A DNA stretch of 57,950 nucleotides from Singulisphaera sp. (GTDB lineage: Bacteria; Planctomycetota; Planctomycetia; Isosphaerales; Isosphaeraceae), in assembly GCA_027451445.1 (NCBI GenBank), contig DAIDJG010000227.1:1-57950 (forward strand). The letters are read 5' to 3'. The notes under the pieces were generated by a model. It saw only the letters and a list, made by a program, of their open reading frames with translations. It searched no databases and was not told the DNA's origin. A program made the translations under genes and the position numbers. This document shows, piece after piece, positions 11,149 to 45,717 of this stretch (positions are counted from its first letter, which is position 1; each line of letters starts with the position of its first letter).

Positions 11149-11192
11149 TGGAGCGGAAGGGGCTCGAACCCTCAACCTTCGCATTGCGAACG
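11149..11192. repeat. Prophage left attachment repeat (44 bp; displaced tRNA-Ala 3' end)
   Basis: Forty-four bases are identical to 45645-45688, the 3' part of the tRNA-Ala gene (T-arm, acceptor strand, and anticodon-stem 3' side). The tRNA cannot be completed here because the sequence diverges after 11192. This is what remains when a phage integrates into the 3' half of a tRNA gene and restores the gene with its own copy at the other end. The integrase gene begins 140 bp inside this repeat. Confidence 0.9.
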
Positions 11193-11288
11193 TGCCGCTC
11201 GTTCGATTCGTCGCCATGCTCGCCCTCGCTAAGTTAGGCAATCTCACTTTGAGCGAGATCGTTTTGGGATTCTGAGGTGACTCGTAAA

Positions 11289-11327
11289 GTCTCCCACGTA
11301 CAGCCCCCTTCTTGCAACCTGGGAGAC
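11289..11327 (+). promoter_or_regulatory. Inverted repeat covering the integrase ribosome binding site
   Basis: GTCTCCCA (11289-11296) and TGGGAGAC (11320-11327) are perfect reverse complements separated by 23 nt. The right arm contains GGGAGA, the only plausible Shine-Dalgarno for the GTG start at 11332. In RNA the arms would pair and mask that site. A DNA-level role, as a protein binding site near the attachment core, is equally possible. Confidence 0.5.
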
Positions 11328-11331
11328 ACCT

Positions 11332-12252
11332 GTGAGCGACTCGACGACGAGCGACTGGGCCGCATTCCGCGACGAGATTATCGAGCTTTATGCGCCGCCC
11401 TGGCACCCACCCAAGACGAGATCCACCGTGAGACGCGTACTCGACGTGCTCGAGCAGCTCGGCGTCAGAGAGATCGCGGACCTGACCCCAGAGCTGCTCG
11501 CACGATTCGTGCGACGATCTCGGCTCGCCCCTTCCACCATCCAGGGGCAATTCGCGTACGTTCGCGTCGTCTGCAAGATCCTGCACCGGACTGGCCGGCT
11601 CGAGCATGACCCGACGCGAGCCCGGGACCGCTGGCTACCTCCGGCAGCCGCCTGGTACACGGCGCCGGCGAAGCACCGCGAGCCCGAGGAGATCCGACGT
11701 GTGCTCGCCAGGGCCACGCAGGAGGCCCAGGAGGGCGGCTGGCGCGAGCGCAGGCTCGAGGCCCTGATTTACTGCCTGGCCTATCTCGGAGCCCGTAAGA
11801 GCGAAATCCTGGGGCTCAGGAGGGCCGACTACGACCGGGGGCTGAGGCTCGTCGAAATTGCCCCGAACGCCTGCCGGCGGCTCAAGACGGCGCGTGCCGC
11901 GGACCAGCTCCCGGTGTGCAGGACGCTCGCCCAGGTCCTCGACCCGTGGGCGTCCGACGTGGCGAGCGACTGGCTCTTCCCCACCCTGTGTAAAAAAAAA
12001 CCGTGGCTGACGGGTGGTCCTGGGCACCGGCCGCTCGACCAGATCCGGGCGATCGGCGAGCGGGCCGGCGTGCGCCGGCTTAATTTCCGCGCGTTCCGCC
12101 ACACGTATGCGACGCAGGCCGAGGGCCTCGGGCTGCCAGAGGCTTTCGCCCAGCGCATGCTGCGTCACACGACTCCCCTGACCTCCCGCAGGCACTACAG
12201 AGCGCGGGTGCTAGAGCACCTGCGAGACCCGGCGGAGAGGCTGAGGTATTAG
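11332..12252 (+). CDS. int: Prophage tyrosine recombinase (integrase)
   Basis: 306 aa. Residues ~1-95 form an N-terminal core-binding (SAM-like) domain ('LTPELLARFVRRSRLAPSTIQ'). The C-terminal catalytic domain shows the expected order: first Arg in 'LGARKSEILGLRRADY', then 'FRAFRHTYATQAEGLG' (His-x-x-Arg region), 'MLRHTTPLTSRRHYRAR' (second His and Tyr nucleophile). It would carry out site-specific integration and excision at the flanking 44-bp repeats. GTG start with GGGAGA 6 nt upstream. A run of nine A at 11992-12000 encodes three Lys and is a potential slippage site. No excisionase is recognisable beside it. Confidence 0.92.
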   Translation: MSDSTTSDWAAFRDEIIELYAPPWHPPKTRSTVRRVLDVLEQLGVREIADLTPELLARFVRRSRLAPSTIQGQFAYVRVVCKILHRTGRLEHDPTRARDRWLPPAAAWYTAPAKHREPEEIRRVLARATQEAQEGGWRERRLEALIYCLAYLGARKSEILGLRRADYDRGLRLVEIAPNACRRLKTARAADQLPVCRTLAQVLDPWASDVASDWLFPTLCKKKPWLTGGPGHRPLDQIRAIGERAGVRRLNFRAFRHTYATQAEGLGLPEAFAQRMLRHTTPLTSRRHYRARVLEHLRDPAERLRY

Positions 12253-12312
12253 ATCCCGCTCGACGTGCTGCCAGTTGAACGACTGCCAGGACCCCTGGGC
12301 CACTTGCGTGTA

Positions 12313-12915
12313 TCAGCGTCGTGGCCCTTTATCGCGAGTCGATCGATTGCGGACACCTCGCAGTTCCAGGATGAGTTTGACAAACAGATCGGACAGACGA
12401 TCCCCAACCCGATCCAGGAAATCGGACAGCGTAGCTGCCTTGTGGACCGGTGAGAGCTTCTCGGCCGCCCGGACCGTAGCGAAGACTTCGAGCATCAGGC
12501 TTTCGACCTCCGACGCGTGTGCTTCCATTTCCATAAGGGATGGCATGCGTCTGAACCCTTCGCCCACGCCCATGTCGCATTGCAGCTCGGGGAGGAGACG
12601 CTTTAGCCCCTCGTCGTCGGGCGTCCCGGATATCTTGACGGCCGCGGCTGCTATGAGTCGCGACAAAAAGCTGTAATTAATCGCGATGAGTGGTTCCCCC
12701 GGGAAGACGCTGAACCATTCCCCGCAGTGACGACAGCCCGCGGAGGCCTCGGGGGCGTGTGTTCCCCCAAACCAGGCGACGGATCGCGCCCCTCCAGACC
12801 AGCCGGAGGCGCTATGGGGCTCGAAAACGCGTACCGTCCCTTCTCTGGCAAAGCGAGAGTTGCATCGTGCGCAGAGCATCGTGATCTCTGCGTCCATCTG
12901 TCTGTAATCCTGCAT
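12313..12915 (-). CDS. Hypothetical zinc-ribbon protein
   Basis: 200 aa, convergent with the integrase. Two Cys pairs (C-x2-C at about residues 15-18, 'LCARCNSRF', and at about 61-64, 'CRHCGEWF') sit in the N-terminal third and could form one split zinc ribbon. The rest is helical with an acidic/leucine-rich segment ('ASEVESLMLEVFATVRAAEKL') and a basic C-terminus. The function is unknown; in this position phages often carry lysogeny-expressed genes. It starts at ATG 12915 without a strong ribosome binding site. Confidence 0.6.
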   Translation of the reverse strand: MQDYRQMDAEITMLCARCNSRFAREGTVRVFEPHSASGWSGGARSVAWFGGTHAPEASAGCRHCGEWFSVFPGEPLIAINYSFLSRLIAAAAVKISGTPDDEGLKRLLPELQCDMGVGEGFRRMPSLMEMEAHASEVESLMLEVFATVRAAEKLSPVHKAATLSDFLDRVGDRLSDLFVKLILELRGVRNRSTRDKGPRR

Positions 12916-12970
12916 GGCCAGCTCCTAAAGTGCGTGGCGTCGAACTGACCTTGTCCTACCTTGGAAACGC

Positions 12971-12996
12971 CAAACCCCTCCGCGAGGAGGGGTTTG
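12971..12996. terminator. Strong hairpin at the end of the structural operon
   Basis: An 11-bp perfect stem (CAAACCCCTCC / GGAGGGGTTTG) closes a GCGA tetraloop. It lies in the 323-bp non-coding stretch 12916-13238, downstream of the last leftward structural gene. There is no U-run on either strand, so it may act as a processing or pausing element or a bidirectional terminator. Nothing else is recognised in that stretch. Confidence 0.55.
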
Positions 12997-44709: not shown

Positions 44710-44777
44710 TTCGATCCCAGTTAACGCAGCCATCCAGGTCTTACAGGTCGCCCCATTTTGACGGACGCTGAACACGC

Positions 44778-45011
44778 ATGATTTCGCGAGAAATGTTCGA
44801 GACGGTGATCCTCCACGGCTCCCTGACCGTGAGCGTGACGACCACATTCTGGTATTTCCCGTTGATTGGATCCAGCGCCTTTGTCCAAGTCGAGGGCGAC
44901 CTGAACATGGTGTTCAATTTAACGACGCCCGAGGTTGCGATCGGGTTTCATGGGAACGTGGTGCGACTCGTGATTTCGATGATGATCGACCTGGCCAGGG
45001 CGTCAACGTAG
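44778..45011 (+). CDS. Possible small prophage protein
   Basis: 77 aa, beta-rich and hydrophobic ('ILHGSLTVSVTTTFWYFPLI', 'NVVRLVISMMIDLARAS'). No ribosome binding site is seen, but the codon pattern is protein-like and no strand-opposed gene covers the first part. Its end overlaps the end of the convergent gene by 9 bp. Confidence 0.4.
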   Translation: MISREMFETVILHGSLTVSVTTTFWYFPLIGSSAFVQVEGDLNMVFNLTTPEVAIGFHGNVVRLVISMMIDLARAST

Positions 45012-45500
45012 AGACGCGATCGCAAGGGCCGCCAGTAACCCGGTTGTGCCCGCGATGGCCAGGGCCTTCAGCACGAACTGGAGCTGGTTGCCCCCTTCGC
45101 CAAAATCCCTTCGGATCGACCAGGCCCACAGCGCGGCCGCGGTCGCGGCTTTGGATGCCCCCCTCGCGAAATATGCGATTGCGTCCGAGACCGCGGTCGA
45201 CGCGGCAGCCAGGATGCCGCAAAGCGGAGCGACCGCGTCGCTCAATCGTGCTGGAGCGGGCTCCAGCTTCGGCGCTCTGAGATGTGCGACCTCGTGCTCG
45301 TCGTCTTTGTGGTCGAGGTCGTCGTCCAGATTCTCGTCATCGAGATCGGCGTGGAGTGGCTTCCAGTCGACCCACTTCACGAACCGCATCTTGCGGCCGT
45401 TGCACGTAGGGTTGAAACAGGTCGGGAGCGGCTTGCGCACAGTCTTGGAGACAAAGGACCTCTTGCAGCGCCGGCATTCGTAGACGGGGCTCCAGACCAC
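45003..45500 (-). CDS. Zinc-ribbon membrane protein next to right attachment site
   Basis: 165 aa from GTG 45500. 'YECRRCKRSFVSKTVRKPLP' and 'TCFNPTCNG' form a zinc ribbon. An acidic Asp/Glu-rich linker ('DLDDENLDDDLDHKDDEHEV') follows, then two hydrophobic segments ('VLKALAIAGTTGLLAALAIA' at the end). A cytosolic metal-binding head on a membrane anchor is inferred. It is transcribed leftward from the promoter at 45592-45620, through a terminator-like hairpin, so it may be expressed in the lysogen. Confidence 0.65.
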   Translation of the reverse strand: MVWSPVYECRRCKRSFVSKTVRKPLPTCFNPTCNGRKMRFVKWVDWKPLHADLDDENLDDDLDHKDDEHEVAHLRAPKLEPAPARLSDAVAPLCGILAAASTAVSDAIAYFARGASKAATAAALWAWSIRRDFGEGGNQLQFVLKALAIAGTTGLLAALAIASLR

Positions 45501-45515
45501 GGCTCGCCCTCGCGC

Positions 45516-45565
45516 AAAAAAAAACCGCCCCCGGCTCGATGGTTGGCGCCCCGCCGAGGGCGGTT
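45516..45565 (-). terminator. Rho-independent terminator or attenuator
   Basis: On the minus strand AACCGCCC (45565-45558) pairs with GGGCGGTT (45530-45523), with an extra CGGC/GCCG inside, followed by nine T. It lies after the tRNA-Ala gene and the phage promoter and 16 bp before the zinc-ribbon gene start. Confidence 0.8.
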
Positions 45566-45591
45566 CGAAAGGACCCGCCGCGTCCTGTCTT

Positions 45592-45620
45592 ATTGTACAC
45601 CGCGCTTGCGCCCGGGACAA
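45592..45620 (-). promoter_or_regulatory. Leftward promoter at prophage right end
   Basis: Minus-strand TTGTCC (45620-45615) and TACAAT (45597-45592) are separated by exactly 17 bp. Transcription would start near 45585 and either stop at the hairpin after ~65 nt or read into the zinc-ribbon gene. Confidence 0.65.
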
Positions 45621-45644
45621 GAAAACAAGCTGCGCCGTGGCCAC

Positions 45645-45717
45645 TGGAGCGGAAGGGGCTCGAACCCTCAACCTTCGCATTGCGAACGCGACGCTCTCCC
45701 AGTTGAGCTACCGCCCC
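45645..45717 (-). tRNA. tRNA-Ala(CGC)
   Basis: 73 nt. The acceptor stem GGGGCGG / CCGCTCC pairs fully with one G-U. D-stem GCTC/GAGC, anticodon stem TCGCG/TGCGA, loop TTCGCAA with anticodon CGC (reads GCG, Ala), T-arm GAGGG-TTCGAGC-CCCTT, discriminator A. CCA is not encoded. The 3' 44 nt are the prophage right attachment repeat (45645-45688), so the gene is restored by phage DNA. Confidence 0.95.

Follow-up and report, generated by a model that had tools for sequence, protein, structure and literature searches.

Background

Few phages of planctomycetes have been described. The present work concerns an element at positions 11149-45688 of a 57,950-nucleotide stretch of Singulisphaera sp. contig DAIDJG010000227.1 (the whole stretch is referred to as the window), which is very probably a temperate, HK97-type tailed phage (siphovirus-like) of a Planctomycetales host (probably of the family Isosphaeraceae), inserted by its own integrase at the 3' end of tRNA-Ala(CGC). 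When incoming DNA carries the end of a tRNA gene, a working tRNA is left on one side and a stub on the other, which is the classic layout of an integrated temperate phage.

An extrachromosomal 21.9-kb phage has been reported from a deep-sea planctomycete strain (PMC10945688). Among deposited phages, those of Streptococcus (Javan phages) have a large terminase subunit (TerL) and portal of the same HK97-type packaging family, and Synechococcus S-CBS1/S-CBS3 and the Roseobacter CRP phages a capsid of the same family, but identity is at most ~40% per protein and hosts and gene sets are different. In fact, against 50,697 deposited phage records the best-ranked TerL is 39.8% identical, the capsid at most 36.7% and the portal at most 36.8%. 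The best TerL in IMG/VR (63%) is closer: IMG/VR 3300044686_000024 (L006) and a prophage of Planctomycetales bacterium 71-10 (G052:C117, MKTT01000117.1) have TerL proteins 56-63% identical and the same late module. L006 also has, in the corresponding place, the short recombinase discussed below, whereas the G052 prophage has a pseudopilin-like gene and lacks both this recombinase and a close primase. Of 397 genomes of the class, 22 (the genome of the window among them) have a TerL relative at E < 1e-100. We would expect the prophage to represent at least a new genus within a planctomycete phage lineage.

Results

Attachment sites: prophage, circular sister and empty locus

The window contains a 44-bp direct repeat whose copies (11149-11192 and 45645-45688) are perfectly identical, and which still agree at 50 of 52 positions when extended to 52 bp. 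The copies are spaced by 34,496 bp, the size of the excised unit, and the repeat is the 3' end of the tRNA-Ala, reaching into and including the anticodon loop. The features at the two ends are as follows (no strand is given for the att cores).
11149..11192: attL, left 44-bp att core, i.e. the displaced tRNA-Ala 3' end (perfect repeat of 45645-45688; aligned with attB and attP)
11332..12252, plus strand: att integrase, a tyrosine recombinase of 306 aa (PHROG 1, E 3.6e-33; PF00589)
45645..45688: attR, right att core, i.e. the present 3' part of the tRNA (repeat; alignment with attB and attP)
45645..45717, minus strand: tRNA-Ala(CGC), intact (ARAGORN; Rfam tRNA, 62.8 bits)

The integrase adjoins attL, and is 44% identical to that of a sister phage, which lies beside the sister's attP. 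This sister came from a TerL search in genomes of the same order, which returned a 73% relative on G047:C182 (DAIDHE010000479.1, Planctomycetales bacterium isolate clean338). The contig measures 36,210 bp and is read as a 36,069-bp circle because its first 141 bases recur at its end and the pseudopilin-like gene runs across the junction of the contig ends. It is a circular permutation of the prophage, with the same circular gene order except for a rearrangement in the tail region. Head genes are 57-80% identical (major capsid protein, MCP, 80%; TerL 73%; portal 70-72%), and the two have in common the att core, the order of the head module, the integrase, the short recombinase, the pseudopilin-like gene and the primase, whereas the sister is circular, 36.1 kb in size, and diverged or replaced in its tail tip, terminator position and early region.

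The sister carries a single copy of 46 bp identical to the tRNA-Ala end, with no tRNA (attP). This copy lies precisely between the primase and integrase genes, at the point where the ends of the prophage would meet. The bin of the same genome also holds an uninterrupted tRNA-Ala, 100% identical to that of the window, which runs into the equivalent of the window's left flank (the adjacent genes, an efflux pump included, are 71-88% identical to those in the window). Both the repeat and the insertion boundary are thus independently confirmed by the circular sister and the empty site, and with attL and attR in the window and attP and attB in G047, all four att states have been seen. A circular cousin together with a matching empty site would be about the best evidence for a mobile virus that sequence can provide. 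The preliminary description of this DNA had already noted the perfect repeat at both ends and the intact tRNA-Ala(CGC) at one of them, and both observations held; it had further proposed that related strains be searched for an empty tRNA-Ala site, which was found in G047 and, in the same arrangement, in G017 and G045.

A related phage evidently uses the site as well: on G004:C154, a further contig of the family with a TerL gene, the integrase adjoins a 42-bp stub of tRNA-Ala. Stubs of this tRNA were also found in G012, G013, G015 and G016. On G015:C115 a tRNA-Ala is accompanied by two 3' stubs (56239, 73023 and 80101) that lie 17 and 24 kb away, probably as a result of tandem insertions at one tRNA.

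Packaging, head and tail genes

The late genes, as recognised in profile searches, lie on the minus strand and run from 31.5 kb down to ~14 kb. All entries below are on that strand, in the order of the module.
31620..31967: HNH endonuclease adjoining the terminase (PHROG 144, E 1.8e-24)
31157..31540: terminase small subunit (TerS), P27 family (TIGR01558 above cut-off; PHROG 83; PF05119)
29499..31160: terminase large subunit, TerL (PHROG 9, E 1.6e-146)
28866..29489: conserved beta-rich protein between TerL and portal, 207 aa (72% to sister)
27539..28828: portal protein (PHROG 12, E 2.5e-98)
26427..27542: head maturation protease (PHROG 80, E 2e-49)
25023..26405: HK97-fold MCP, 460 aa (PHROG 617, E 2e-59; PF05065, E 3e-32)
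23805..24719: head-tail adaptor (PHROG 442, E 7e-15)
23455..23784: head closure protein Hc1 (PHROG 25, E 6e-15)
21733..22725: lectin-like fibre protein (profile match to LamG, weak; exact start uncertain)
20582..21733: fibre-like protein with five 21-residue repeats (63-bp DNA repeat, 5 copies)
20043..20585: tail terminator (PHROG 347, E 2.5e-5)
19354..20046: tail protein with weak sheath and major tail profile matches (43-52% to relatives)
18908..19357: neck/tail completion protein, HK97 gp10-like (PHROG 5, E 1e-14; PF04883)
18154..18615: major tail protein (PHROG 158, E 2e-12)
17790..18110: tail assembly chaperone (PHROG 344, E 2e-11)
17497..17736: tail assembly protein (PHROG 337, E 6e-9)
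15992..17497: tape measure protein, 501 aa (PHROG 1535, E 7e-18)
14998..15987: distal tail candidate after the tape measure, 329 aa (30-32% to sister and to the G052 prophage)
14654..15001: late protein, 115 aa (28% to sister)
13864..14652: last late gene, Ig-like/distal tail candidate, 262 aa (46% to sister; weak Big_1)

TerL starts with GTG at 31160, in a 4-base overlap with the TerS stop. The 63-bp (21-residue) tandem repeats lie at 20963-21299, and the fibre-like gene that contains them has no match in the sister. The tail is likely siphovirus-like, as the module includes a tape measure and a major tail protein together with chaperones and a terminator, and no baseplate gene was recognised in profile searches of the prophage proteins; it is only likely because the gene at 19354-20046 also matches a sheath profile weakly (E 6e-7, with major-tail matches alongside).

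In all 19 gene pairs compared with the sister there is no internal stop and dN is below dS, and the lengths of the head genes are near-equal, so that this copy of the prophage is apparently intact. The reading of the preliminary description, a complete siphovirus-type prophage in a probable planctomycete, is therefore upheld by gene content, att anatomy, the orthologous empty site and the circular sister with its attP. Each of the components it listed (integrase, both terminases, portal, protease, HK97 capsid, tail genes and primase-helicase) matched profile families; the planctomycete host is supported by two same-family genomes, which are Planctomycetales; and the comparison with viral collections it called for gave no close phage, with TerL, portal and capsid at or below 40% among deposited phages. 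Its siphovirus type gained the tape measure, major tail protein, terminator and lack of baseplate genes in its favour, and stands as likely, not proven, given the weak sheath match.

Apart from the prophage, the genome of the window (G000) has two more HK97-type capsid genes, on C420 and C56, and C420 carries a TerL relative with one in-frame TGA.

A second, short tyrosine recombinase

Absent from the preliminary description were a second tyrosine recombinase, a prepilin-like protein, and a papain-fold protease with its one-helix neighbour. The recombinase and the site proposed for it comprise three features, all given on the plus strand.
35015..35042: core of the proposed resolution site, two inverted arms of 8 bp around a 12-bp spacer (one copy in the window)
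35109..35122: third copy of the arm in the proposed site, following the right arm at 77 bp (just before the recombinase start)
35157..35720: catalytic-domain-only tyrosine recombinase, 187 aa (PF00589, E 1.5e-43, full length)

The protein aligns to the catalytic domain only of XerA/XerD-type proteins, the core-binding domain of TnpI/Xer being missing. It is 82% identical to its counterpart in the sister and has the lowest dN/dS among the 19 genes compared (dN 0.13, dS 1.75). Relatives 51-63% identical are found on plasmids of cyanobacteria, Bradyrhizobium and Hydrogenophilus. At three of the 12 plasmid loci examined the relative lies beside a Tn3-family transposase (L090, L093, L138), in two of these three directly preceding it in the same direction, and at two of the 12 it adjoins ParA (L092, L095). 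The phage has no linked tnpA transposase of the kind present beside the relatives in L093 and L138.

The same site geometry, with quite different arm sequences, recurs in L084, L086, L087, L088, L091, L006 and L094, while in several further homologues the spacer is 13 bp long, or the direct repeat at 77-78 bp is all that is present. The score of the pattern, added up across 16 upstream regions, was 283, whereas 200 shuffles gave 236 on average and at most 250; the test was not blind because the pattern had first been spotted by eye in the same sequences. About half of the 16 regions carry the signal and the rest do not fit; among the homologues, C182, L085, L089, L092, L095, L140 and L141 fit poorly. 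A palindrome scan with 9-bp arms picked up the site in only some homologues, and the third-arm geometry is the more general description. The sister's genome encodes the short recombinase once more, on the 7.3-kb contig G047:C378 (L096; 3045-3605, 76%), and there too the gene is preceded by the same site.

The nearest described counterpart is the TnpI/irs system of Tn4430 and Tn5401, TnpI being carried by only three transposons in the survey concerned (PMC7157771). As there, a tyrosine recombinase is combined with a proposed upstream site made of an inverted pair and an arm repeat, and the phage protein has relatives that immediately precede a co-oriented Tn3 transposase. Unlike TnpI, the phage protein has 187 aa and consists of the catalytic domain only, with no transposase in the phage, and its site has one accessory arm at 77-78 bp instead of two direct repeats. 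The short recombinase is probably a compact resolvase that separates multimers of the circle. Other roles were considered and rejected. Promoter inversion finds no support, as the window and the genome each contain the site a single time and the surrounding gene order is the same in the sister; a decayed integrase fragment is at odds with the conserved start and length of what is the most constrained gene; and mobility in the host after the manner of an insertion sequence is at odds with the one copy in the genome of the window.

A pseudopilin-like gene

39196..40530, plus strand: pseudopilin-like protein, 444 aa, with prepilin motif RPG^FTLVELL (PF07963 above cut-off)

The protein has a prepilin leader (RPG^FTLVELLVV, with G at -1, F at +1 and E at +5) and the hydrophobic helix. 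Relatives are found in 32 of 45 genomes of the order, and those examined (G024, G049, G017 and G045:C324) are part of an operon with GspE/PilB-like and GspF/PilC-like genes (names assigned by eye from the sequences) and several other pseudopilins. A pseudopilin family exclusive to phages was therefore rejected, most relatives being chromosomal. None was found in deposited phages or IMG/VR. In the genome of the window the prophage copy is the only close relative found, though most related genomes have one, which may be an assembly gap.

The phage-linked copies form three groups, namely those of the window and sister, those of the G052 prophage and an integrase-linked element in G050, and that of G045:C360, which lies beside tail-like genes and falls within the host copies of its genus. 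This suggests that the host pseudopilin was taken up at least three times by phages or integrase-linked elements. Against this number it must be said that the G050 element is integrase-linked only, that one branch is long, and that a chromosomal copy from G040 groups with those of the window and sister. In G052:C117 (3428-4834) and G050:C15 (L129, 9034-10413) a zinc-ribbon-like stretch precedes the prepilin motif in frame, a part that would be removed by prepilin peptidase.

That the protein acts in superinfection exclusion or secretion is a guess, made because phage proteins are known to act on type IV pili (PMC11436027). It would resemble the Pseudomonas phage proteins that inactivate type IV pili (PMC11436027, PMC8764522) in addressing pilus assembly, but whereas those are inhibitors of pilus assembly proteins, the phage described here encodes a prepilin-like subunit itself.

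Lysis candidates and early region

32468..33268, minus strand: cysteine peptidase of papain fold, 266 aa, candidate enzyme for lysis or wall degradation (alignment, AlphaFold, Foldseek)
32358..32471, minus strand: 37-aa single-helix membrane protein, candidate holin (hydrophobic segment; 48% to sister)
34229..34813, minus strand: sigma-70-type factor, 194 aa (PF04542, E 7e-10; PHROG 351)
37591..38145, plus strand: helix-turn-helix protein, candidate regulator (PF13384/PF13936 near cut-off)
42266..44602, plus strand: P4-family primase-helicase, 778 aa (PF08706; TIGR01613, E 1.5e-81)
44618..44709, no strand: long hairpin directly following the primase gene, candidate origin of replication or terminator (40-nt, z -7.55)

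The sequence-only match of the papain-fold protein is weak. Its AlphaFold model (pLDDT 75.8) superimposes on xylellain with a Z of 20.8 and an rmsd of 3.1 over 210 residues (Foldseek, VIA-align), and Cys55 and His179 are invariant in the alignment, so that by predicted fold and Cys-His pair it belongs to the papain-like peptidases (clan CA, C1). The one-helix protein directly follows it, and the two are a candidate lysis pair. The planctomycete envelope is protein-rich, and a protease as lysis enzyme would therefore fit.

In the early region, near-identical palindromic repeats (CCGGCCGCACGTCGCGGCCGG) with an operator-like appearance occur at 36069-36093, 36651-36675 and 36902-36927, each shortly upstream of a gene start. 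After the primase gene of the sister, in the corresponding position (C182 4669-4775), there is likewise a hairpin, which is perfect but unrelated in sequence. PADLOC found no defence genes.

Discussion

Following these results, the life cycle of the phage may be pictured as follows. The integrase would insert the phage DNA into the 3' end of tRNA-Ala(CGC), and because the phage carries the last 44 bp of this tRNA, the inserted phage would have an intact tRNA on one side and a 44-bp stub on the opposite side. On excision it would return to a circle of ~34.5 kb, to be replicated with the P4-family primase-helicase and packaged by TerS, TerL and the HNH endonuclease. Multimers of the circle might be resolved by the second recombinase at the site upstream of its gene, the pseudopilin-like protein might alter the host pilus or type II secretion machine, and the papain-fold protease might take part in lysis. 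The larger picture that this would add up to is an integrating planctomycete phage lineage in which a transposon-type resolution system (catalytic-domain-only recombinase, inverted core and accessory site spaced by 77 bp) keeps the circle monomeric, and in which a host pseudopilin, captured at least three times, alters the pilus or secretion machine. As a whole this is tentative, being possible but, on balance, doubtful.

Several points weigh against the reading as an active temperate phage. In the relatives examined, synteny is lacking to the right of the empty site, which is therefore documented only by its left flank and by the tRNA itself. The circle of the sister is a metagenome contig whose overlap equals a likely assembly k-mer, tandem or permuted phage DNA could mimic such a circular contig, and its host is known by binning only. 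Moreover, profile searches of the prophage identified no canonical endolysin, holin or CI-like repressor.

This last point, together with the single-copy integrated form being the only one in this assembly, is what could be expected of a recently decayed prophage, in which a hidden defect in regulation or lysis genes blocks production. Such decay is nevertheless unlikely: the genes compared with the sister are all open and evolve under purifying constraint, the papain-fold protease and the small membrane protein can supply a lysis pair, and the sister exists as a circle. This copy of the prophage may still be inducible.

The circle of the sister, with an empty attB in the same bin, could also be that of a phage-plasmid-like element, usually a circular episome with its own multimer resolution and only occasionally integrated. 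The resolvase-like recombinase and resolution-like site (with relatives beside ParA or Tn3 transposases on plasmids) and the P4-family primase would suit such an element. However, neither ParA/ParB nor a plasmid replication initiator (Rep) was recognised in profile searches of the prophage, where small genes without assigned function remain, an att integrase with a tRNA site is standard for integrated lysogens, and the circle could equally be replicating or packaged phage, which makes this explanation a little less probable still than decay. A P4-like satellite, for which the P4-family primase and tRNA integration (both common in satellites) might speak, can hardly be upheld, as it is refuted by the element's own gene content, which includes full sets of packaging, capsid, connector and tail genes.

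Conclusions

For a temperate siphovirus-like phage of the Planctomycetales, the four att states, seen over two genomes, provide an integrase/attB pair from which a genetic tool for planctomycetes might be made. The integration site is defined and serves more than one phage of the family, and with a sister that occurs as a circle the phage may offer a tractable induction system. The short recombinase and the geometry of its site, which occur in planctomycete phages as well as in Tn3 transposons of cyanobacteria and on plasmids, look like a compact type of resolvase. Finally, phages seem to have acquired the same host pseudopilin more than once, which would point to a repeated phage interest in the machine to which it belongs.

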